Shown: in pieces, positions 8,873 to 35,292 of the stretch
Layout of the letters: the number at the start of each line of letters is the position of its first letter
Numbering within the stretch: position 1 is the stretch's first letter
Source of the DNA: Thermoleophilia bacterium
GTDB taxonomy: Bacteria > Actinomycetota > Thermoleophilia > BMS3ABIN01
DNA length: 35,292 bases
Direction of reading: 5' to 3'
Assembly: GCA_014874265.1 (NCBI GenBank)
Contig: JACWAM010000104.1
Span: 1 to 35,292 of the forward strand
Program-made: the position numbers and the translations under genes
The notes under the pieces: generated by a model
What the model was told of the DNA's origin: nothing
What the model saw: only the letters and a program-made list of their open reading frames with translations
The model's database searches: none

Positions 8873-9640
8873 TTATCTCCGCTTTGCAGACCTGGCCCTG
8901 GCTTTCGCTTTGGCCTTTGGCTTCGGCTTGGCTTTGGCCTTTGGCTTTGCTTTAGCCTTTGGCTTTGCCTTCGGTTTGGCTTTGGCCTTGGCTTTGGCCT
9001 TGGCTTTAGCCTTCGGCTTGGCTTTGGCTTTAGCCTTAGGCTTGGCTTTAGCCTTCGCCTTGGCTTTGGCTTTGGCCTTCGCCTTGGCTTTCGGCTTGGC
9101 CTTAGGCTTGGCTTTCGGCTTGGCCTTGGCCGCGGTCGCCGATGGCTTCAACCCAAGCACTTTCTCGATGTCTCGTTTAAAAGCTTTCCAGTCGCGGCCG
9201 TAGAGGCGGTAAGGGTTCCAGGCCGTAACCGTCTTGGTGTAACGGTTAAACTCGTGGAAGTTGGGAGCCCGGCCCAGCTTCTTGGCGATGCGCACGCCCT
9301 CGTCAATATAGCGTTCTTTCGTTGGCTTGCGGGGCTTTTCCAGGCCGACGGTCACCTTGAGCTCGCGCACGCTCATGCCCATTCTTAAAGCCGGATATTT
9401 GGCGTCCACCTTGCCAAGCTTCACCAGCTTTTTCATCTCGTCTTTCGTCCGGCGGGCGGCGGGGATCATTCCCGCCTTGCGGACGGCATTGGTCCAGCCG
9501 CCAAACCTGGCCCTGATCGCTTCCGCGCTGGGACGATTCGGCCCTTCGAGATAGCCGTGATAAGTTGGCCCCATGAGGCCGTCCTTACTAGCTTTCTTAA
9601 GAGCATTTAGCAGATCCTGATCCGAATAAATTTTGTCCAT
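8873..9640 (-). CDS. Putative nucleoid-associated protein: two homing-endonuclease-associated-repeat-like segments plus an H1-like Lys/Ala/Pro-rich C-terminal tail
   Basis: 255 aa. N-terminal RPSAEAIRARFGGWTNAVRKAGM resembles homing-endonuclease-associated repeats; second related segment APNFHEFNRYTKTVTAWNPYRLYGRDWKAFKRDI; C-terminal (KAKPKAK)n tail ending RARSAKRR. Confidence 0.75.
   Translation of the reverse strand: MDKIYSDQDLLNALKKASKDGLMGPTYHGYLEGPNRPSAEAIRARFGGWTNAVRKAGMIPAARRTKDEMKKLVKLGKVDAKYPALRMGMSVRELKVTVGLEKPRKPTKERYIDEGVRIAKKLGRAPNFHEFNRYTKTVTAWNPYRLYGRDWKAFKRDIEKVLGLKPSATAAKAKPKAKPKAKPKAKAKAKAKAKAKAKAKPKAKAKAKPKAKAKAKAKAKAKPKAKPKAKAKPKAKAKPKPKAKAKARARSAKRR
8886..9138 (-). repeat. 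Low-complexity coding repeat for the (K/P-A)n tail
   Basis: Imperfect tandem repetition of ggctttggc/ggccttcggc-type units on the + strand. Confidence 0.85.
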
Positions 9641-22584: not shown

Positions 22585-22749
22585 TTATCGGAACCAGGCA
22601 GCAAGAGTCAAATCGGGATTTGTAGGGGATAGACACTGGCGCAGACAGTAATCGCGACCCCCAGTTGCCGCCGTACCTGTCTGCACTTTCAGCTGACCGG
22701 CTACGTAGACCTCATAGTGGACTGGCTGGGCGTTTGGATTTGCGATCAT
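22585..22749 (-). CDS. Short ORF (54 aa), possible fragment of a larger secreted/surface protein
   Basis: Reads MIANPNAQPVHYEVYVAGQLKVQTGTAATGGRDYCLRQCLSPTNPDLTLAAWFR; protein-like composition but no recognised family; below the ORF-track size cutoff. Confidence 0.25.
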   Translation of the reverse strand: MIANPNAQPVHYEVYVAGQLKVQTGTAATGGRDYCLRQCLSPTNPDLTLAAWFR

Positions 22750-23074
22750 GACCCATCATCTGAACATAAAGCCAGCACTTTGCTATGTCCCGCAAAGCCT
22801 GGGCAATGTGATCCGGATAGTTAAACTCACCGGACTAGATTACCAAAAAGGTGTGACCGGGCACTGGCAGTCGAGGCGTTGTTTTAAATCGAGCTTTGCG
22901 TCAAATCGCTCTGACCGGAGCGAATTATATCGCTATCGGCCGCTCCCCGGATCAAATGGCGCCAAGAATACAAAAAGCGTATATTGTGATGAGAATACTT
23001 TTGGATATGAACGGCAGCCAGCCAGTGATTCCTCAGCTTCGCTCCGGACTGACAATTACCTGAGACTTAATTTT

Positions 23075-23239
23075 ATGAACGAAAAAAAACAGAACCCTAA
23101 GCCGTCGCCCGGTGCGCGGATTGCGATCATCGCCGCGGTCGTCGTCATTTTCATCGTGGCCGGAGCCCTGGTGCTGCTCGAGCGGACGGCCGGCGGCGAC
23201 CGGCCGGCCCCGCAGGTGACGGTGACGCAGTCGCGCTAA
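23075..23239 (+). CDS. Small single-pass membrane protein (54 aa)
   Basis: Internal ATG of the 22748-23239 ORF: MNEKKQNPKPSPGARIAIIAAVVVIFIVAGALVLLERTAGG..., one TM segment; the upstream part of the ORF looks non-coding. Confidence 0.45.
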   Translation: MNEKKQNPKPSPGARIAIIAAVVVIFIVAGALVLLERTAGGDRPAPQVTVTQSR

Positions 23240-23287
23240 CAGATTCCTCGGTCGCCGCGCACTCTCGAAACGACAGGATTCGTGAGA

Positions 23288-25339
23288 TTACAGCCGCCCG
23301 GCGACGATCTCGTCCACGACCTCCGGATCCGCCAGCGTCGAAGTGTCCCCCAGATCACGGGTCTCTCCCGCAGCCACCTTCCGAAGGATGCGGCGCATGA
23401 TCTTGCCACTCCGTGTTTTAGGCAGCCCGCGGACGAACTGGATCTTTTCCGGCCGGGCAATCGGTCCGATCTGGTCGCCGACCTCGGCCGCCAGCACCCG
23501 CCGCATGTCGTCGCCGCCGTCGTATCCCTGTTTCAGCACCACGTAAGCATAGATGCTGCTGCCCTTGACCTCGTGCGGGTAGCCGACGACCGCCGCCTCC
23601 GCGACAGCCTCCTGCGCCACCAGCGCCGACTCAATCTCGGCGGTTCCCAGCCGGTGGCCGCTGACGTTGATAACATCGTCGATCCGGCCCATGATCCAGA
23701 AATCGCCATCGGCGTCCACGGCGGCGCCGTCGCCGGTGAAATACTTGCCGGGAAATCTGTCGAAATAAACTTCCTTCACACGCTTGTGCTCGGGATCGCC
23801 GTAAGTGCCGCGTAGCATCCCCGGCCAGGGTTTGCCGATCACCAGGTAGCCTCCTTCACCCGGTGGCGCCGGCGAACCGTCCTGGCGGACGACTTCGGGC
23901 GCGACGCCGAAAAAAGGGCGGCTGGCGGAACCGGGCTTGAGCGTCATCGCCCCCGGGAGCGCCGAGATGACGATGCCGCCCGTCTCGGTCTGCCAGTAAG
24001 TGTCGACGATCGGCAGACGTCCCCGGCCGACGTTCCGGTAATACCACATCCAGGCTTCCGGATTAATCGGCTCGCCTACCGTGCCCAGGAGCCGCAGACT
24101 TTCCATCGGATGTTTCCGGACCCACTCCTCCCCCTCGCGCATCAGCGCCCGGATGGCGGTCGGGGCCGTATAGAAGATGCTTACCTTGTGCTTGTCGACG
24201 ATCTGCCAGAAGCGGTCCGGCCCCGGATAGGTGGGCAGGCCCTCGAACATCAGCGAAGTGGCGCCGTTGCTCAAGGGGCCGTAGACAATGTAGGTATGAC
24301 CGGTGATCCAGCCGATATCGGCGGTGCAGAAGTGGAGATCCTCCGGCTGATAATCAAATATCCACTTGAAAGTCAAATGAGCGTAGAGCAGATAGCCGCC
24401 GTTGGTATGCAGCACTCCTTTCGGCTGTCCGGTGGAACCACTCGTATAGAGGATGAATAAAGGATCTTCGGCGTCCAGCTCCTCGGGAGGACAGTAATTT
24501 TCAATGTCTGGCGCCTCCATTTCGTCACGCCACCAGGTATCGCGTCCTTCTTCCATGGCCACATGATGACCGCCCAGACGCTCGGCGACGATCACCTTCT
24601 CAACGGTGGGGCAGCTCCTAAGCGCCTCATCAGCGTGCGCCTTCAGCGGCACCACCTTGCCGCCCCGCATGCCGCCGTCGGCGGTGATTAGCAGCCGGGC
24701 GCCGCAGTCGCGGATGCGGTCCGCCAGCGACCCGGCGCTGAAGCCGCCAAAAACAATGCTATGGATAGCGCCAATGCGGGCGCAGGCCAGCATCGCGATC
24801 GCCAGCTCCGGGATCATGGGCAGGTAGATGCTGACGCGGTCGCCGCGTCCGACACCGTGCTTGAGAAGAACGTTGGCAAAGCGGTTAACTTCATAGGCAA
24901 GCTGCTCGTAGGTAAAGGTGCGGTACTCGCCGCCGTCACCTTCCCAGACAATAGCGGCCTTGTGCCGGCGGGGACTATCCAGATGCCGGTCCAGGCAGTT
25001 GTATGAGACGTTGATCTGCCCGCCGATAAACCAGGCTATTTCCGGCCGGTTAAAATCATATTCGAGAACCTTGTCCCAGCGCCGGTGCCAGTGCAGGTGC
25101 TCAGCGGCCATCTCGCCCCAGAACCCCTCGGGATCTTCAACCGAGCGGCGGTAGAGCGCCTCGTACTCCTCGAAGCTGGCGACGTGCGCGCGCCTGCTGA
25201 ACTCTGCCGGCGGCTGGAAACATCGCTTCTCGCTGAGAAGCGCTTCGATCGCTTCGCCACTGATGCCCGCCGCGTGCTCCTGCCCGGAGCCGCTGGCAGC
25301 TCCGGAGGCTTCCCCGGTCTGTTTTTCTTTTTTAGCCAG
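23288..25339 (-). CDS. acs: Acetyl-CoA synthetase (AMP-forming); probable non-canonical CTG start
   Basis: [42 protein letters not shown]. The in-frame region 25112-25339 encodes [36 protein letters not shown], an Acs-like N-terminus, although the ORF track starts at 25111. Confidence 0.9.
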
Positions 25340-25694: not shown

Positions 25695-26960
25695 ATGATT
25701 AACTCTGAAAAAAATGGCAAAGTCGCATTCTTCTGGGACGAATCGTATCTGTGGAGTTTACTCGCATATCACACGTTTCGCGGGCTGAGCGTTGATTTTG
25801 AGCTTCTCACCGGCAGCGAGATCCGCAGCGGTGCACTCAATCGTTTCGACGCGCTGTTCGTGCCTGGGGGCTGGGCCGGCGATAAAATGGAGGCGCTTGG
25901 CACGGAAGGCGCCGCGCGGATCCGCTCATTTGTCGAAAGCGGCGGCGGCTATCTGGGAATTTGCGGCGGCGCCGGCCTGGCGCTGACCCATGAAAGCGGG
26001 CTGGGCCTGGCGCCCATCGGGCGCTTGCCTACACGGGTGCGGGTGCCGAGTTTTAGCGGCCTGATCGGCGTTGAGCAGACACAACCGGCGCACGCCATGT
26101 GGGAAGGAATTGTCGAGGGGACTCCGTTTCATGCCTGGTGGCCCGGCCAGTTCTCGCTGGTTGATGACACAGCCGTCCAGGTGCTGGCCCGCTACCGCGA
26201 GCCTGTGCCGGGCATGTCTTACGTCACCGACTTGCCGGTTGAGCCTGAGGTAGACTGGCCAAAATGGGAGGCGAGTTACGGTATTAACCTTGACCCGGCG
26301 CGCCTAGGGGGGGAGCCGGGGGTAATCGAGACCCGTTTTGGCGAAGGCAGGGTCATCCTTTCCTATCTTCATTTCGATACGGAAGGCGACGCCGGCGGGA
26401 ACAACGTCCTAGCCAACCTGTTGACTTATCTGGCCGGTGGAGAAAAACCGGAGCCGGCGGCTGCGGTTTTACATCACACCCATCGGGCGGGCGAGGGCAG
26501 CCCGTCACCGGAGCCGGGGTCGAGAATTGCCTGCGAGGTGCATGAGACGATCTCCGCACTCATCGATTTCGGCCGGCACAACTTCCTCTGGCGCTGGCGC
26601 ACGCCTTGGGTGCTTCAGTGGCGCCGTGGGGTCCGGGGCATCGAGTATTCGACACTGTTTGTGCTTTCATCAGAGATATGTGACCATGCCGCCGTGATCG
26701 GTGAGAGCAAGGAAGATACCTCCCGGCTTAAGCGATTACGGATCATAACCCGGTCGTTTGCCACCGATGCCCGGAGGCTGCTGATGCTGGAACGATTCGC
26801 CATGAGCCGCGGCCCATTAAGTCCGTTAAAAATCAGCGACCCGGAGATCAAAGCGCTGCGAAAAGAGCTGTTTTCCAGCACGCGGCGCTGCGGCGGGCGG
26901 TACCGCGAGATAGTGGAGCTGATGGACAGAGTTCTGCTGCCAATGTTAAAGAAGGAATAA
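25695..26960 (+). CDS. BPL_N (biotin-protein ligase N-terminal)/class I glutamine amidotransferase-like protein with C-terminal extension
   Basis: 421 aa; FDALFVPGGWAGDKMEAL and GGGYLGICGGAGLAL (possible nucleophile Cys); about 150-aa C-terminal region without recognised family. Confidence 0.7.
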   Translation: MINSEKNGKVAFFWDESYLWSLLAYHTFRGLSVDFELLTGSEIRSGALNRFDALFVPGGWAGDKMEALGTEGAARIRSFVESGGGYLGICGGAGLALTHESGLGLAPIGRLPTRVRVPSFSGLIGVEQTQPAHAMWEGIVEGTPFHAWWPGQFSLVDDTAVQVLARYREPVPGMSYVTDLPVEPEVDWPKWEASYGINLDPARLGGEPGVIETRFGEGRVILSYLHFDTEGDAGGNNVLANLLTYLAGGEKPEPAAAVLHHTHRAGEGSPSPEPGSRIACEVHETISALIDFGRHNFLWRWRTPWVLQWRRGVRGIEYSTLFVLSSEICDHAAVIGESKEDTSRLKRLRIITRSFATDARRLLMLERFAMSRGPLSPLKISDPEIKALRKELFSSTRRCGGRYREIVELMDRVLLPMLKKE

Positions 26961-27063: not shown

Positions 27064-27354
27064 TTACCAGGAAGCCGCCTTGTTTTCTTCCACCAAGCCG
27101 ACGAAGCCGCTGTAATCAACTTCCTTGACGCCGTCGATCAGTTTTTCAATTCCCCGGAGGGCAACATCCTCCTTAAGCACATAAACGTCGTGTTTTGCCA
27201 TGATCTCCTTCATCCGCGCTTCCAGCGCAGAGCCGGCCAGGGCTCCGTAGATGCCGTCCTCATAAAGCAGAATCGGCGATCCATCCGATGCATAGCGCAA
27301 ACAGTCCTCCAGGCTGTTTGACTCAAAAGGAGACTTGTTAATCATGTGAAGCAT
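27064..27354 (-). CDS. dsrH: DsrH/TusB family sulfur relay protein
   Basis: MLHMINKSPFESNSLEDCLRYASDGSPILLYEDGIYGALAG; conserved Cys (residue 18) and terminal Trp typical of the family. Confidence 0.9.
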   Translation of the reverse strand: MLHMINKSPFESNSLEDCLRYASDGSPILLYEDGIYGALAGSALEARMKEIMAKHDVYVLKEDVALRGIEKLIDGVKEVDYSGFVGLVEENKAASW

Positions 27355-27401
27355 GGTCCTCCTTTACATTTCTGTCAGTTAATCAGCGGGCGACCTGCTG
27401 C

Positions 27402-27773
27402 TTAAAAGATCATAGTATTGCGCTGATCTTCCATCATCTTGTCAACCTGATCCGCGGCAATGACTTCCGGCTGGATGATCAGATCGTCCAGAGTCAGGCC
27501 GCGCGCCTTGAGCGAGTCGCCGTCGATATAGAGCTTTTCGACGTCATAAACCGGCTCCAGCGCCTTGAAAGTAGGCGAGAAGTCCTTGATGCCGGTGGCG
27601 GCGTTGTCCATTCCCTTCTTGAGCGCCAGGACACCGTCATCGATGAAGAGGACCGTCAGATCCTGCTCGTAGGCGGCCATCATCACCACATTTTCCAGTC
27701 CTTCAAAAGAATAGATACTCCCGTACGGAGCGGTACGAAAGACAACCATAAGTTTCGCTGCTTCATCATTCAC
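27402..27773 (-). CDS. dsrF: DsrF/TusC family sulfur relay protein
   Basis: VVFRTAPYGSIYSFEGLENVVMMAAYEQDLTVLFIDDGVLALKKG; between dsrE and dsrH. Confidence 0.9.
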   Translation of the reverse strand: MNDEAAKLMVVFRTAPYGSIYSFEGLENVVMMAAYEQDLTVLFIDDGVLALKKGMDNAATGIKDFSPTFKALEPVYDVEKLYIDGDSLKARGLTLDDLIIQPEVIAADQVDKMMEDQRNTMIF

Positions 27774-27790
27774 TCTTGCTCACCTCTTTC

Positions 27791-28150
27791 CTAAGCTCTG
27801 AAGGTTACCAGCCGGTCGGCCTCGATCGCGAGGTCGGTCAGCATCCCGAGACCGCCAATCTTGAAATTCTCGGCAACGACTTCATCAACGATGCCGCGTC
27901 GTTTGGCGGCGGCGACGCAGACGATGTACTCGATGCCGTGCTCCTTGGACAGATCCGTCCACCGCTCCTGAATATGACGATCATCTCTTTGGACATCCAT
28001 CAGTTTTGTGGCATTAAGAACGCCATCCTGATAAAAGAAGACGCGAGAAATCTCGTGGCCTTTCTCGACGGCGGCCTTGGCGAAATTGTAAGCGCTGTCG
28101 GATGCCTCGTGCTGATATGGTCCTTCCAGAATCAAAATACCGAATTTCAC
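27791..28150 (-). CDS. dsrE: DsrE/TusD family sulfurtransferase
   Basis: MKFGILILEGPY...VFFYQDGV...YIVCVAAAKRRGI; Cys at residue 78 matches the conserved catalytic cysteine. Confidence 0.92.
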   Translation of the reverse strand: MKFGILILEGPYQHEASDSAYNFAKAAVEKGHEISRVFFYQDGVLNATKLMDVQRDDRHIQERWTDLSKEHGIEYIVCVAAAKRRGIVDEVVAENFKIGGLGMLTDLAIEADRLVTFRA

Positions 28151-28247
28151 AGCCCATCACTCCTTCCTGAAAAAGATTGCCGGGGTTGGCGCGCAGATTG
28201 TGCGAACCTTAAAAGACCACTTGAGCCCCCACATCACACCCCGCGCT

Positions 28248-28276
28248 ATCGTATAGAGGCAGCGGAATATTGTCAA
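28248..28276 (-). promoter_or_regulatory. Candidate sigma70-type promoter for dsrEFH
   Basis: Minus strand TTGACA-N17-TACGAT in the 205-bp gap upstream of dsrE. Confidence 0.6.
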
Positions 28277-28355
28277 ATTCGGAGCTTCTTTGGCGGCGCG
28301 GGGATTTGTCGAAAAAGAGCTCGAAAGTGAAAACTTTGAACCTGGAACCGGCGGT

Positions 28356-30140
28356 TTACATCCCCATCTCGATGTAGCCGCAGGGGCAGCAGTCGGCGCA
28401 GACATGGCAGCCGATGCATTTGGTGTAATCAGTGAACATGATCTGGCCCACCGGCATCTTCATGTCCCGGCTGATAGCGTGCGTGGGGCAATTGACCCGG
28501 CAGCGATCGCAGGTAAAGCAGAGTCCGCAGCTCATGCAGCGGTACGTTTCCTCGGTGGCCCGCTCCCGGGAGAGTGGCAGATTTACCTCCTCAAAACCGG
28601 CGACGCGCTCGGCGTCCGGCAGCTCGCCCGCCTCATGGCGGGAAGCGGCGGCATAAAAATCGAGATCGATCCGGTCGTAATCAATCGGCTTGCGCGGGTG
28701 CGGCTCCTTGTATTCAAAACCGCGCAGGTAGGCGTCAATGGCGCGGGCAGCCTTGCGGCCGCGGCCCACGGCCATCGTGGCAACACCGGCCTTGATCAGA
28801 TCGCCGCCGGCAAAGACGCCGGGAGTGCCGGTCCACCCGAAAACCCCGGCCTCAATGCGGCCCGACTCGCCCGTCAGCGCGCTCATCCCTGTCAGATCGG
28901 CCCGCTGTCCGATAGCGGCCACGATCGTGTCTGCTTCCATGTCAAACTCCGATCCCGGAACCGGCACCGGCCGCCGGCGGCCGCTTTCGTCAAGCTCGCC
29001 GAGCTGCATCCGGATGCAGGTAAGGATCAGGCGGTGGGCGGCTCCCTCTCCCGCCGGGCGGATCTTTTCCGGCGCCGCCAGAAAGTCCAACTTGACACCC
29101 TCGTGGATCGCACCTTCAACCTCGGACTCCAGCGCCGGCATCTCCGCCTGCGTCCGGCGGTAAACCAGGCCGACTTCGGGTCCCAGTCTCAGGCAGACAC
29201 GCGCAACATCGACGGCCGAATTGCCGCCGCCGATAACAAGCACCCGCGATCCCAGCTCAAACTTCTCACCGGCGTTGAGCAATTTGATCAGGTCGATACC
29301 GGGCACGACGCCTGTCAGCTCCTCGCCATCGATATTTAACCGGATTCCTTCCCGCAGCCCCAGCGCCACGTAGACCGCGTCAAACACCTGGCGGAGGCCG
29401 TCCAGACTGACGTCCCGCCCCACCATCGTGCCCGGCCGGAACTCGACTCCTTCCATATCAATAATCCGCTGGACTTCCCGCTCGATTATCCCGCGCGGCA
29501 GCCGGTAGAGGGGCAGCCCGTACCTGAGCATGCCGCCCGGCTCGGCGTCGGCTTCAAGGACCGTCACCGGATAGCCGCGCCTGGCGAGCTGATAGGCACA
29601 GGAAAGGCCGGAAGGGCCGGAGCCGATAACGGCGACCTTTTTGTCCTTTTTCTTGTACGTGAGTTTCCGCAGCTTCAGGCCGCGCTCGAGGCCGTGATCA
29701 CCGATATATCGCTCCAGGCTGTGGATTGCGATCGGCTCATCCTTGTGGCCGCGATTGCACGCATCCTCGCAGGGATGGGGACAGATGCGGCCGTGCACTG
29801 CCGGGAACGGGTTATGATCGGTCAGAATGTACCACGCTTCATCCAACGACTCCTCATGCGAACGGCCAAACTGCAGCGCTTGGGCGATCTCGGTCAGGTA
29901 GCCGCGGGCATCCTCGCTGCTGGGGCAGGCGCCCTTGCAGGGCGCCTCGCGCCGGACATATACCGGGCAGCTGAGCCCGTCGCGGTCATAAACGGGGTAA
30001 GCCTCGGAAGGATCCGGGGTTTTGACATGAACTGTCTGCAGGCTGCGTTTGCCGGCGCTCATGACGGACAGCCCGCCGAAAACAAAGTCTGGAATCTCCC
30101 GCCATCGCCAGGCCGGCTTGCCGCGAGCCGCACACCCCAT
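28356..30140 (-). CDS. dsrL: DsrL-like FAD/NAD(P)H oxidoreductase with ferredoxin domain (module 2)
   Basis: 594 aa; PCKGACPSSEDARGYLTEIAQ, VIGSGPSGLSCAYQLARRGYPVTVLEA, GGGNSAVDVARV, C-terminal CMSCGLCFTCDRCRVNCP...CIGCHVCADCCPCGYIEMGM. Start may be internal (MSAGKR). Confidence 0.82.
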   Translation of the reverse strand: MGCAARGKPAWRWREIPDFVFGGLSVMSAGKRSLQTVHVKTPDPSEAYPVYDRDGLSCPVYVRREAPCKGACPSSEDARGYLTEIAQALQFGRSHEESLDEAWYILTDHNPFPAVHGRICPHPCEDACNRGHKDEPIAIHSLERYIGDHGLERGLKLRKLTYKKKDKKVAVIGSGPSGLSCAYQLARRGYPVTVLEADAEPGGMLRYGLPLYRLPRGIIEREVQRIIDMEGVEFRPGTMVGRDVSLDGLRQVFDAVYVALGLREGIRLNIDGEELTGVVPGIDLIKLLNAGEKFELGSRVLVIGGGNSAVDVARVCLRLGPEVGLVYRRTQAEMPALESEVEGAIHEGVKLDFLAAPEKIRPAGEGAAHRLILTCIRMQLGELDESGRRRPVPVPGSEFDMEADTIVAAIGQRADLTGMSALTGESGRIEAGVFGWTGTPGVFAGGDLIKAGVATMAVGRGRKAARAIDAYLRGFEYKEPHPRKPIDYDRIDLDFYAAASRHEAGELPDAERVAGFEEVNLPLSRERATEETYRCMSCGLCFTCDRCRVNCPTHAISRDMKMPVGQIMFTDYTKCIGCHVCADCCPCGYIEMGM

Positions 30141-30155
30141 TGCGTTTCTTTCACA

Positions 30156-31232
30156 CTACAACCTGACATGTGAAGAGGTGTTGAACGTTGTCCGCGCCCA
30201 CCGGTAGTTGTCAATGTGATATTTGGTGAACTCGAAACCGGTCAGGTCGAAAAAGTTCTTCCAGCCAATCCGGTCGATCCATTCGCCGACGCGCTCAAAC
30301 TCGCGGGCGCCATCCTTGTAAGCGTTAAGCAGGCGCTTAAGAGCGTCGCCTACCTCCGGCCAACGGGGCGGATTGTTAGGCAGTCCGATGGCAGCCAGTT
30401 TCATGAACGCCGGGCCGCTACGGGTGTGCGAAGATTTGCCTCCCACCCAGATCGAGAGGGTGTCGGTGTCGCCGTCCCTGATCTCGATGGCGGGGCATTG
30501 GGCATGGCAGGCGCCGCAATACATACACTTTTCTTCAATCACCTCAACAGTGTCATGGCCGTCTTTCCGGTCGGGCCGGATCGCCATCACCGGACAGATA
30601 GCAATCACTTTCGGCAGCTCGCATCTGCCCACCATTTCGTGGTCAATCACGGGCGGGTGGTGATGCTGCAAATTAATGGCGATGTCGGTCTGGCCGCCAC
30701 AGTTGATAGTGCAGCAGGAAGTTGATATTTTTACTCGCTGGGGGAAATTTTCGTGCGTAAATTCCTCGTAGAGCATGTCCATAATGGATTTGACCACGCC
30801 GGAGGCATCCGTATTGGGAAGATTGCAATGCAGCCATCCCTGCGTATGGATGATGTTGTGCACGGAGCGGCCGGTGCCGCCGACGGGAAAGCCAAGCACC
30901 TTTTCGATCTCATCGATGAGCGGCTGCACCTCCGCCTCGGTTTCTACCTGAAACTCAACATTATTGCGGCTGGTGAAGCGCAGCCGTCCCTGGCAGAATT
31001 TGTCCGCGACATCGCAGATCCGCCTCAGCAACCGGGCGCTCATCAGCCGCGGCGAGCCGGCGCGAACGGTAAACAGGTTGTCGCCGCTCTCGGCCTCATG
31101 GACAAAGACGCCCGGCCGGATGTCCCGGTGTCCGGTCCAGCGGCCATAATTCCGCTGCATCGACGGGTGCAGATAGGGCTCGTAATCGGGAGCGCCGTTG
31201 TCTCTCGGCGCCCGGGGCTTGATCGGGCTCAC
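30156..31232 (-). CDS. dsrB: Dissimilatory sulfite reductase beta subunit (module 2)
   Basis: GWLHCNLPNTDASG plus SCCTINCGGQTDIAI (siroheme/4Fe-4S cysteines), ferredoxin CMYCGACHAQCP. A GTG at 31232 with SD AAGGAG is preferred over the ORF-track start at 31343, which overlaps dsrA. Confidence 0.93.
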   Translation of the reverse strand: MSPIKPRAPRDNGAPDYEPYLHPSMQRNYGRWTGHRDIRPGVFVHEAESGDNLFTVRAGSPRLMSARLLRRICDVADKFCQGRLRFTSRNNVEFQVETEAEVQPLIDEIEKVLGFPVGGTGRSVHNIIHTQGWLHCNLPNTDASGVVKSIMDMLYEEFTHENFPQRVKISTSCCTINCGGQTDIAINLQHHHPPVIDHEMVGRCELPKVIAICPVMAIRPDRKDGHDTVEVIEEKCMYCGACHAQCPAIEIRDGDTDTLSIWVGGKSSHTRSGPAFMKLAAIGLPNNPPRWPEVGDALKRLLNAYKDGAREFERVGEWIDRIGWKNFFDLTGFEFTKYHIDNYRWARTTFNTSSHVRL

Positions 31233-31248
31233 CTCATTCTCCTTGTCT

Positions 31249-32511
31249 TTAAGCTTCCGCTTCCGGTCCTTCCGGCTCGCGGTTAAGCACGTTGGCCGCC
31301 TTGTGTGGCTCCCCTTCGATGCGGGGGGCCGTATATTCCTCAAACTTGATGTAAGGATTGCTGCGCGGCTGCCTCACCATCTGTGGATTCGGCTCGAGGC
31401 CAACGCCATCGAGGAAGGTCCCCAGCCCGACACGGTCGATAAATTCGCCGACCCGCTCGTGCTCGAGGCCGTGCTCGCCCCAGAAATCCCAGATTCGCTC
31501 GACGATGGCGCAGAACGTTTCGTAATCCTCATCAGTCTCCAGTTTGAGAAACGGAACCAGGGCCGAAGCAAGCATGTCGCCGTTGCGCACGGTGCGTTTG
31601 CCGCCGATGAGCAGGGTAACGCCACGATCGTTTCCCGGCGCCAGGGCGCCATGCATCACGTTGATGCAGTGCATGCAGCGAACGCAGTTACGATCGTCAA
31701 TCTCCATCCGGTCGCCTACCAGCCGCATGCAGAGCGTCGGGCAACGCGAAGTGACATTGCCGATCACCCAATCTGCCCCTTTTCCCGCGACGAACTCCTC
31801 AACCACTTCCTGATTAATTTGAATGTTGTCGCGCCAGGTGCCGATGACCGGCATGTCCGAACGCGAGGTGGCGTTAGAGCAGTCATTGGCGCATCCCGAC
31901 AGCTTGAATTTGTATTTGTAGGGAAACTCCGGCCGGTGCAGATAACCGATGTACTTGTCCGTCAGATACTTGGTCAGCTTCAGCGTGTCATAACATGACA
32001 TCTCACAGCGCGCCGGCCCGATGCAGCAGGGAATGGTCCGCATGCCATTGCCGGAGCCGCCAATATCCCAGCCGTCTTCCATGAGCACCTCGGCGGCTTC
32101 GAACAGCTTCTCATTGTCGTATCCGAGCAGGAGGATGTCGCCGGTCATCCCATGCAGTTGGAGGATGCCGGCGCCGTACTCTTCACTGATGTCCGCCAGC
32201 TGCCTGAGCGCCGCGGTCGAGTAGACAAAGGCCGGGGGCTCGATCACCCGGATCGTGTGAAACTGGGCCACATCCGGAAGCTTGTCGCCCAGATTGGAGT
32301 AACGGGCGATGACACCGCCGCCGTAGCCGGCTACGTTGAGGACAGTGCCGCGCCAGAAGTCCCAGCGGTTTTCATAAGATTCCTCCAGCTGCTCAAGCAA
32401 CTGGTTCAACTTCGGGTTGCGCTGCGCCTGATCCTTGAGATCCTTGACAAAGCTGGGCCAGGGACCTGTTTCCAGCTCGTCAAGCAGCGGCAGCTTCAGC
32501 TCATCTGACAC
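31249..32511 (-). CDS. dsrA: Dissimilatory sulfite reductase alpha subunit (module 2)
   Basis: 420 aa; CCIGPARCEMSCYDT (CX5C) and LSGCANDCSNATSRSD (CX3C), ferredoxin CVRCMHCINVMHGAL. Confidence 0.95.
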   Translation of the reverse strand: MSDELKLPLLDELETGPWPSFVKDLKDQAQRNPKLNQLLEQLEESYENRWDFWRGTVLNVAGYGGGVIARYSNLGDKLPDVAQFHTIRVIEPPAFVYSTAALRQLADISEEYGAGILQLHGMTGDILLLGYDNEKLFEAAEVLMEDGWDIGGSGNGMRTIPCCIGPARCEMSCYDTLKLTKYLTDKYIGYLHRPEFPYKYKFKLSGCANDCSNATSRSDMPVIGTWRDNIQINQEVVEEFVAGKGADWVIGNVTSRCPTLCMRLVGDRMEIDDRNCVRCMHCINVMHGALAPGNDRGVTLLIGGKRTVRNGDMLASALVPFLKLETDEDYETFCAIVERIWDFWGEHGLEHERVGEFIDRVGLGTFLDGVGLEPNPQMVRQPRSNPYIKFEEYTAPRIEGEPHKAANVLNREPEGPEAEA

Positions 32512-32781
32512 AAATTCTCCTTTCGTAAAACTCCTGCAAGCTGCGTCGAGTTGCCTTGATGCGTGGGAGATGTCCGAATTTTAACCGGTATTAGTGCTTT
32601 TTAAACTGGTGCAACAACTTGATCCAAGTTCAAAGTTCAAAAAATTTTTCAGTCATAAAATCAGAGGGGAACAGGTTTGACGAAATTTATCCGGAGCGAA
32701 GCCGAAGCGAGGCACCAATATCTGACATCCGGCTCATGAGGACGCCGCCTATGGCATTTGCAGCCAACCGTAGCAGAACGA

Positions 32782-32813
32782 ATGGGGCGCGGCCTGCGCA
32801 GGCCGCGCCCCAT
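32782..32813 (-). terminator. Hairpin separating the two dsr modules
   Basis: Perfect 14-bp stem atggggcgcggcct-gcgc-aggccgcgccccat, downstream of the 32838-34532 gene on the minus strand. Confidence 0.75.
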
Positions 32814-32837
32814 GAGACTACCCGATTGTTGCTGCTT

Positions 32838-34532
32838 TTACCCCATGTCAATATAGTTGCAGGGGCATTCCTCGGCGCACTTGGAGCAGCCGACACAGGA
32901 GTCGAGATAGAACTTGTAGTACTCGTGCTCGTGCGTGCGATTCTCGGGGAGCACCTTCTTGATCGCGTTGTACGAACAGAACGAGTAGCAGTTGCCACAA
33001 TCAAAGCACATGCCGCAGCTCAGACAGCGCTTGGTCTCTTCGAGGGCAACCTCATCCTGGAAGGTGGAGACGACCTCGGTGAAATTACTCTTGCGTTCAT
33101 CCGGCGACAGCGCCGCTTTCTGAGCCCGGTCGGCCGGCTGGTAATACGAAGCAGCCATATTATCGAACTTAACCACCTTCGCCGGGTACAGTTTGGGCAT
33201 CTCCTCGCCGCGGACATAGTAGTCGATCGCTTCAGCAGCCTTGCGGCCCAGGCCAATCGCTTCCGTAACCGTGCCCAGATGATTTGTGACATCGCCGCCG
33301 GCATAGACTCCCTCTTCGGAGGTCTGACCGGAAGCCTCATCCACGGTGATCCAGCCCCTCTCGTCCTTGAACGCCTCGATGCCGCCGAACTGCGGCCCCT
33401 GGCCGATCGCCGGCAGGACCATGTCGGCCTCGATGATAAACTCGGAGCCTTCCACCGGCTCCGGCCGCCGCCGGCCGCTGTCGTCCGGCTCGCCCAGTTC
33501 CATCTTGATGCACTTCAGACCCGTAACCTTGCCGCCGTCGCGGACGACCTCAACAGGTGCGGCCAGGTACTCGATGTGAATGCCCTCAGCCTCGGTGTCC
33601 TCGATCTCCTCTTCCTCAGCAGGCATCTCGTCACGGGTACGCCGGTACACGATCTGGGGCTCCGCGCCCATCCTGAGGGATGCGCGGGCCGCGTCTACGG
33701 CGCTGTTGCCGCCGCCGATGATCAGGACCTTCTTGCCCTTGACGTCAACAGCCTCGCCGCTGTTAACCATATTGAGAAATTCAACGGCGTTCATGACGCC
33801 TTCGCCCTCTTCACCGGGGATGCCGAGGTTCCAGCCCTCGTGCGCGCCGATACCGAGGAAGACGGCGTTATAGTCTTTCTTGACGTCGTCAATCGAAACA
33901 TCAGCGCCAACGCGCGTGCTGTACTTGATCTCGACGCCCAGTGCTTCCAAAGCCGCTACTTCGGCGTCCAGAATCTCTTCTGGCAATCTGTAGCTGGGGA
34001 TGCCGTAGCGAAGCATGCCGCCCGACTTCGGGAACGCCTCGAAAATCGTCACGGGATAGCCGCGGCGGGCCAGCTGAAACGCACAGGAAAGTCCGGCGGG
34101 ACCGGAACCGATGACCGCCACTTTTTCAGCATGCGCCTCGCCTTCGAGTTTCTCGTGCGCCAGTTTGCTGCTGATGCCAAAGTCGCCGATAAAACGCTCG
34201 ATCTGGTTAATTGAAAGAGCCTCATCCTTATACTGCCGGTTACAGTCCGTCTCGCAGAAATGCGGGCATACACGGCCCAGGACCGCCGGCAGCGGGTTGG
34301 TCTGGGTCAGCACGCGCCATGCCTTCTCGGTGGCGGCGGCCATATCCATCCCGTTATCCTCGCCCTGCGCAATCGACGTCAGGAAACCGCGAATGTCATT
34401 GTCGCTGGGACAGGCATTCTGGCAAGGCGGAATCTTGGCGACGTAGCTCGGCCGGAGGTGCGAACCCTCACGGCCACGGCTGTAAGTCGCCGCGCCGATC
34501 TCTCTTTTTCTTATCTTTAATACTACCGCCAT
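32838..34532 (-). CDS. DsrL-like/glutamate-synthase-small-subunit-like FAD oxidoreductase with ferredoxin domain (module 1)
   Basis: 564 aa; PCQNACPSDNDIRGFLTSIAQ, VIGSGPAGLSCAFQLARRGYPVTIFEA, C-terminal CLSCGMCFDCGNCYSFC...CVGCSKCAEECPCNYIDMG. Confidence 0.82.
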   Translation of the reverse strand: MAVVLKIRKREIGAATYSRGREGSHLRPSYVAKIPPCQNACPSDNDIRGFLTSIAQGEDNGMDMAAATEKAWRVLTQTNPLPAVLGRVCPHFCETDCNRQYKDEALSINQIERFIGDFGISSKLAHEKLEGEAHAEKVAVIGSGPAGLSCAFQLARRGYPVTIFEAFPKSGGMLRYGIPSYRLPEEILDAEVAALEALGVEIKYSTRVGADVSIDDVKKDYNAVFLGIGAHEGWNLGIPGEEGEGVMNAVEFLNMVNSGEAVDVKGKKVLIIGGGNSAVDAARASLRMGAEPQIVYRRTRDEMPAEEEEIEDTEAEGIHIEYLAAPVEVVRDGGKVTGLKCIKMELGEPDDSGRRRPEPVEGSEFIIEADMVLPAIGQGPQFGGIEAFKDERGWITVDEASGQTSEEGVYAGGDVTNHLGTVTEAIGLGRKAAEAIDYYVRGEEMPKLYPAKVVKFDNMAASYYQPADRAQKAALSPDERKSNFTEVVSTFQDEVALEETKRCLSCGMCFDCGNCYSFCSYNAIKKVLPENRTHEHEYYKFYLDSCVGCSKCAEECPCNYIDMG

Positions 34533-34634
34533 ATGGTTCTCCTTTGGTTCACGGGCGCTTGCCCACCAATTGCTTCGACGCGGACGAGCCGCTCCGGATT
34601 CAGCCTTGGAGTCAGCCCCTGCGATACCTTTCGA

Positions 34635-34883
34635 TTACTGATTTTCTGCAGCTTCCTTATGTGGCAGCTCGATGGAACTGCCGCCAAAGTAGCCGTAAAC
34701 CGTGCGCCCGGAATCCATCAAAATCTTGATGGCGGCCTTGACATCGGCGCGATTGACCTGGTCGCCATACTTGGCGGCCATGGCCTTCTGCAAATCGCCT
34801 GCCTTGACCTTTTTCTGCCCGGCGTTCTCAGCTACAATGGCGTAGCAATCTTCTGCCAGCTGCTCAACCGTTATATCCGCCAT
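34635..34883 (-). CDS. dsrD: DsrD-like winged-helix protein
   Basis: 82-aa ORF; length, position directly after dsrB, and a C-terminal YGYFGGSSIELPHK segment consistent with DsrD; SD AGGAGG upstream. Confidence 0.8.
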   Translation of the reverse strand: MADITVEQLAEDCYAIVAENAGQKKVKAGDLQKAMAAKYGDQVNRADVKAAIKILMDSGRTVYGYFGGSSIELPHKEAAENQ

Positions 34884-34897
34884 CCCAGAACCTCCTC

Positions 34898-35292
34898 CTA
34901 GTACCTGTTTTGAACGGACCTGTTGTAAGTCGTGCCCGCATGACGGAAATCATCAAGATGGTACTTAGTGAATTCAAGGCCGGTCAGATCGAAGAATTTC
35001 GGCCAACCGATGCGGTTGATCCACTCGCCGACACGCTCAAACGGCTTGGCGTTGGCGGCATAGACATCGACGATCTTCTTGACCGTTTCCGTTACTTCCG
35101 GCCAGCGAGGCGGATTGTTGGGAATGTAAGGCACGGCCAGCTTCGTGAACATCGGCTCAGTACGGGCGTTGGAAATCTTGCCGCCGACCCAGATGGAGAC
35201 GCCGTCGTTCAGCGGGTCCGCCAGCGGCATTGCCGGGCAGACCGTGAAGCAGTTGCCGCAGTACATGCATTTTTCCTCATCCACCTTGACCG
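34898..35292 (-). CDS. dsrB: Dissimilatory sulfite reductase beta subunit (module 1), C-terminal part, truncated by window edge
   Basis: VDEEKCMYCGNCFTVCPAMPL...SIWVGGKISNARTEP...IPNNPPRWPEVTETVKKIVDVYAANA; open through the window end. Confidence 0.92.
   Translation of the reverse strand, partial: VKVDEEKCMYCGNCFTVCPAMPLADPLNDGVSIWVGGKISNARTEPMFTKLAVPYIPNNPPRWPEVTETVKKIVDVYAANAKPFERVGEWINRIGWPKFFDLTGLEFTKYHLDDFRHAGTTYNRSVQNRY

Follow-up and report, generated by a model that had tools for sequence, protein, structure and literature searches.

Contig JACWAM010000104.1 of an uncultured actinobacterium (Thermoleophilia bacterium, assembly GCA_014874265.1) carries two sulfite reductase (dsr) modules side by side, one of reductive and one of oxidative type, and we can confirm that the arrangement is real. 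The contig was analysed over its whole length of 35,292 nucleotides and is called the window here (contig C95 in our numbering). It belongs to a genome of 2.0 Mb in 126 contigs, which is 97.4% complete with an estimated contamination of 0.58%; this genome was covered by family-by-family searches and by reading limited stretches, and genes were identified with TIGR and NCBIfam equivalog models and their cut-offs (NF009410 for DsrL). The locus occupies 27064-35290 on the minus strand, on which all the window's dsr genes lie, and reads, from right to left, dsrB1 (3′ part)–dsrD-like–dsrL1–hairpin–dsrA2–dsrB2–dsrL2–dsrE–dsrF–dsrH. The gene list and order originally predicted for 27064-35292 from the sequence letters are thus borne out, all of the named genes being present, with dsrD recognised only by its place, size and predicted fold.

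The two reductases have separate origins. The second module begins with dsrA2 (31249..32511; 420 aa; TIGR02064, 482 bits, over cut-off), encoding an alpha subunit of the oxidative clade, and dsrB2 (30156..31232; TIGR02066, 450 bits, over cut-off), encoding an oxidative-type beta subunit; the open frame of dsrB2 extends to 31343, the likely start being a GTG near 31232 (giving 358 aa, relatives having about 358-360 aa). There are two dsrA genes in all in the genome, the other (dsrA1, about 556-557 bits, over cut-off) being on contig C27, and their products are 49% identical. In a tree built from a concatenated DsrAB alignment, with solved reductase structures and sampled loci as references, copy 1 of the family forms a clade (99/99) on the reductive side, where f25 and the reductases of solved structure also lie. 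Copy 2 forms one clade (98/97) within the oxidative side (100/100), nearest to Nitrospinota UBA9963 and Nitrospirae RBG_19FT_COMBO_42_15, with Chlorobium and Allochromatium following after these. The presence of two A-B-L sets adjacent and in tandem could be taken to mean that a single dsrABL set was recently duplicated, an outcome that would have weakened the original prediction; but, because one copy falls in the reductive clade and the other in the oxidative, they are not tandem duplicates, and with forcing both copies into one clade costing 687 log units (approximately unbiased (AU) test, p 8.75e-57) we reject this origin as vanishingly improbable. Eighteen residues distinguish the reductive references from the canonical oxidative ones, and at these the window's copy 1 is reductive wherever it could be scored (17/17, one column being missing). 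On the simplest reading, copy 2 would have been acquired separately, and once, before the genera of the family diverged.

At the window's right-hand edge, dsrB1, for a reductive-type beta subunit, is represented by its 3′ part (34898..35290; 130 aa; TIGR02066 positions 209-335, 196 bits). Extension of the contig, as originally proposed, located the rest of the module: C27 has dsrA1 and also the 5′ part of dsrB1 (22675-23440; the first 255 aa; 326 bits over positions 2-234 of the dsrB model), and it is because the gene is split across two contigs that both pieces score under the cut-off of 341.5. The order on C27 is cobB/dsrN-like, a DVU0298 family gene, dsrM, dsrC, dsrK, a short dsrJ and dsrA1, after which the contig stops within dsrB1; its last 84 bases overlap the window end with 5 mismatches, a pattern to be expected where strain variants interrupt assembly. 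A contig break inside dsrB1 and an imperfect overlap might also betray a chimeric assembly or mis-binning. Against this stand the low contamination estimate and five further members of the genus (G001-G005), each of which joins both modules, in the same order, on a single contig (dsrEFH being cut off in G005 because its contig ends within dsrL2); in G005, which is near-identical, the dsr genes run continuously across the C27/window join. With the two modules joined in all five of these congeners, the arrangement in the window is not chimeric; this explanation is rejected for the genus, and we consider it very improbable overall.

Elsewhere in the family, Gaiellales bacterium SURF_19 (GCA_003599855; G006) has both modules on one contig, and in four more genomes from other genera (G007, G013, G014 and G018) the two lie on different contigs. 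In G010 and G016, which are 98 and 100% complete, only module 1 was found, and dsrEFH lies directly 3′ of dsrL1; these two are nested among genomes with both modules, which suggests that they have lost copy 2. Among a sample of 397 Actinomycetota, 19 have dsrA over the cut-off, and two copies occur solely in this family. The ratio of nonsynonymous to synonymous substitution (dN/dS) is 0.04-0.18 for the dsrA, dsrB and dsrL genes of both copies, indicating purifying selection and therefore that both modules are maintained. Outside the family, bacterium isolate Dive96_bin10.193 (G427; loci L198 and L199) is also dual: besides a reductive dsrAB accompanied by a dsrD-like gene and dsrL, it has a dsrABL set of oxidative type. 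G429, G430, G440 and G441 have two oxidative-type dsrA each, on different tree branches in G429, G440 and G441.

Two of the accessory markers by which the original prediction had sought to tell the direction of each module turn out to be poor guides. It had taken DsrL as mainly a mark of oxidation, and this does not hold here: dsrL1 (32838..34532; 564 aa; NF009410, 620 bits), the partner of the reductive copy, and dsrL2 (28356..30140; up to 594 aa; 592 bits), that of the oxidative copy, are both over cut-off, and both encode proteins of the DsrL-2 type with the YRR motif, a motif that DsrL-1 lacks and that is absent from the Chlorobium, Allochromatium and two Magnetococcales references. In a quick tree (with a long-branch warning at the root that leaves the DsrL1/DsrL2 split unaffected), DsrL1 clusters with DsrLs from reductive operons and DsrL2 with Nitrospinota/Nitrospirota DsrL. 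As the YRR motif has been tied to NADP(H) (Löffler et al., 2020; PMC7596348), both are predicted to be NADP(H)-specific. The products of dsrE (27791..28150; 119 aa; TIGR03012, 133 bits), dsrF (27402..27773; 123 aa; TIGR03010, 108 bits) and dsrH (27064..27354; 96 aa; TIGR03011, 90 bits) all exceed their NCBIfam cut-offs. The translations contain Cys78 of DsrE and Cys18 of DsrH, which we take to be the active cysteines. The DsrEFH tree has a single family clade that takes in the genomes without copy 2, so that a simple tie between dsrEFH and oxidative DsrAB, as originally supposed, fails in this family: there is one vertically inherited dsrEFH set, retained even where copy 2 is absent.

The third marker, the gene between dsrB1 and dsrL1 (34635..34883), encodes an 82-aa protein for which AlphaFold2 predicts a winged helix (predicted local distance difference test score, pLDDT, 83); by place and model it is thus a small winged-helix protein encoded immediately after dsrB. 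Its position is kept in the family (f1), in family f25 and in G427, and the protein is conserved with the latter two. Pfam DsrD (PF08679) gave no match to it at E values up to 10, and none at the locus in the genome search. The sequence of solved DsvD (the query being an exact match to PDB 1UCR) gave no profile match to it, and hhalign did no better than with shuffles; a fold search with the model returned only general winged-helix proteins, none at E < 0.001, and 1UCR was not in the best 50 matches. The equivalent gene has been labelled dsrD in related lineages (PMC10591310; PMC9326234), and we prefer to call it dsrD-like.

The two modules are divided by a hairpin (32782..32813) that begins 24 nt past the dsrL1 stop and has a 14-bp stem (−32.9 kcal/mol; z of about −5 relative to shuffled sequences). 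It is terminator-like and has no T tract, and termination may therefore be partial. A strong stem-loop 3′ of dsrL1 was found in f25 and in every genome of family f1 whose sequence extends far enough, several having a T tract; most likely, the hairpin was already the end of the reductive operon when the oxidative cassette arrived behind it. A scan for sigma-70 promoters found 5, close to the 3.0 expected by chance, and so we do not claim a promoter for module 2. Another strong hairpin (−29 to −38 kcal/mol) lies in the dsrC-dsrK gap of C27 and after dsrC in most genomes of the family (though not G001 and G002; further cases are at L040, L041, L044, L048, L050, L054 and L056), and may raise the level of dsrC transcript.

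DsrC has both C-terminal cysteines, and sat, an aprB-like frame, aprA and qmoABC lie together on contig C121. Of the five-subunit DsrMKJOP complex, the genome provides DsrM, DsrK and a short DsrJ (about 101 aa with two haem motifs in most members of the genus, versus about 140 aa in other genera; C27 L007 950-1255; L037-L041). There is no dsrO between dsrJ and dsrA1, and a genome search for DsrP gave only a 27% NrfD-like match; relocation of dsrP to another part of the genome is therefore rejected, and both dsrO and dsrP are missing in the window's genus. Two loci of family f25 (L191 and L195, genus g62) have a short piece of dsrM only, and no dsrKJOP between dsrC and dsrA1. Beside sat-apr-qmo on C121 (L147/L148/L152) are genes for an HdrDE-like fusion, HdrB, HdrC, a reductase, lipoate ligase, LipS1, a GcvH-like lipoate-binding protein, TusA and a DsrH-like protein, a cluster reminiscent of parts of the sHdr-LbpA system of sulfur oxidation, with no sHdrA seen there.

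How might the two modules be used? We think it rather probable that they provide two sulfite reductases for opposite directions, which would share DsrC, DsrMK and Sat/Apr/Qmo. In such a scheme, the reductive operon (dsrN-like–M–C–K–J–A1–B1–D-like–L1) would end at the terminator-like hairpin, behind which lie the rdsrABL cassette and dsrEFH. DsrAB1 with DsrL1 would most likely convert sulfite to the DsrC trisulfide, and DsrAB2 with DsrL2 would most likely convert DsrC-bound sulfane sulfur, supplied by DsrEFH, to sulfite, with electrons passing to NADP+. Single sets of DsrC, DsrMK and Sat/AprBA/QmoABC would be common to both directions, and the cell would set the direction through which of the two modules it expressed. 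In favour of this scheme are the intact state of both modules, the split of DsrAB and of DsrL into two types, the purifying selection on both copies, the sat, apr, qmo and dsrC genes, and cytochrome bd, which all six members of the genus have. A congener, ACT_02, expressed genes of sulfate reduction (PMC9326234); both actinobacterial metagenome-assembled genomes (MAGs) of that study expressed dsrEFH. The two-direction model as originally put forward is partly supported: dsrA1 exists, and neither chimera nor duplication accounts for the pair. The assignment of directions stays a deduction, and the dual arrangement proves to have been published already.

The sharing of DsrC, DsrMK and Sat/Apr/Qmo by both modules would suit a cell in which the two DsrABs are active simultaneously rather than as alternatives, in a disproportionation of sulfur or thiosulfate or a reversible pathway near equilibrium. 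Since both DsrLs, being of the YRR type, are predicted to be NADP(H)-linked (by the rule of PMC7596348), electrons could pass between the two enzymes by way of a common NADP(H) pool. However, a terminator-like hairpin divides the modules, and cytochrome bd, present in all six members of the genus, suggests an external acceptor. Moreover, the known disproportionators with a reductive-type Dsr manage without a second DsrAB. On balance, simultaneous activity of this kind seems decidedly unlikely, and the more specific proposal that one cell runs both opposite-type reductases at once as a self-contained sulfur cycle or disproportionation, with DsrC, DsrMK and a single pool of NADP(H) in common, is slightly more doubtful still.

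Alternatively, copy 2 might, its oxidative ancestry notwithstanding, be a further isoenzyme for sulfite reduction, used, for example, at low sulfite. To our knowledge its clade has no characterised member, and its canonical oxidative residues are kept only in part; from sequence, NADPH-driven sulfite reduction by rDsrABL-2 is conceivable (PMC7596348). The phylogenetic placement of DsrA, DsrB and DsrL nevertheless indicates oxidation, as does the adjacent dsrEFH, and we regard the isoenzyme as unlikely.

Several points weigh against two reductases working in opposite directions. At the 18 diagnostic residues copy 2 is oxidative at 8, reductive at 3 and neither at 7, a pattern that matches the Nitrospinota-type branch, and we know of no cultured member of this deep oxidative branch (Nitrospinota, Nitrospirota and some Magnetococcales). 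G010 and G016 keep dsrEFH where no copy 2 was found. The dual genomes G006 and G007 are without cytochrome bd, so that acceptor and copy 2 do not track each other; in the window's genome no soxB was found, and narG gave no match over cut-off, only weak ones of the molybdopterin family. The case for opposite directions is, moreover, one made from genes and sequence.

The dual arrangement has been published before for close relatives, including one from the window's own genus. Ayala-Muñoz et al. (2022; PMC9326234) described reductive and oxidative dsrAB copies in the Thermoleophilia MAGs ACT_02 and ACT_11. ACT_02, from the Cueva de la Mora pit lake, appears to be our G003 (L057), in the window's genus: it has the same gene order, with the reductive dsrAB near dsrMKC and dsrD and the oxidative dsrAB near dsrEFH, but is a different species (DsrA2 79% identical), and that account gives no genus-wide description of the operon. 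SURF_19 (L060 and L070) was described, and switching proposed for it, by Löffler et al. (2020; PMC7596348) and Diao et al. (2023; PMC10591310). It is of the same family and has both types on one contig, two DsrLs of the DsrL-2 type, and dsrEFH, but differs in having dsrEFH before A2-B2-L2, a third (oxidative) dsrAB set, and dsrOP reported in the cluster. In the tree of Löffler et al. (PMC7596348), the two DsrA of its main cluster are both oxidative and only the third is reductive; our tree sides with Diao et al. in finding one reductive copy in the main cluster and two oxidative copies. Less close parallels are the CG2-30-53-67 MAG (PMC7596348; PMC10591310), with a reductive and an oxidative set each accompanied by DsrL-2 (dsrABDL-2 and rdsrABL-2), but in another phylum and reported without a single juxtaposed operon for the two; Desulfocapsaceae MAGs (PMC10591310), with dual reductive and oxidative DsrAB, but on separate contigs and with DsrL-2 reported for the oxidative set only; and Moorella thermoacetica (PMC10504309), which likewise has two dissimilar dsrAB copies per genome, the second, however, of an early-branching type and not oxidative. 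What is added here is the conservation of the arrangement through the genus and family, the position of the oxidative cassette behind the reductive operon's terminator-like hairpin, the single vertical dsrEFH set kept without copy 2, and the absence of dsrOP from this genus.

Elsewhere in the window we draw attention to a gene for a 421-aa BPL_N-domain protein (25695-26960, plus strand), which is convergent to dsrH and adjoins the dsr locus in many genomes of the family, and to one for a 255-aa protein (8873-9640, minus strand) that combines a homing-endonuclease-associated repeat with a long tail rich in Lys, Ala and Pro.

It is not yet settled in the field whether a single organism can turn its Dsr pathway from sulfite reduction to sulfur oxidation and back, and the directions of pathways in MAGs are routinely guessed from marker genes, of which dsrL and dsrEFH are weak ones here. 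The worry about misassembly that attended earlier reports is answered for this lineage, and the family offers a natural comparison, between close relatives with both copies and those in which copy 1 alone was found, dsrEFH being kept in both.

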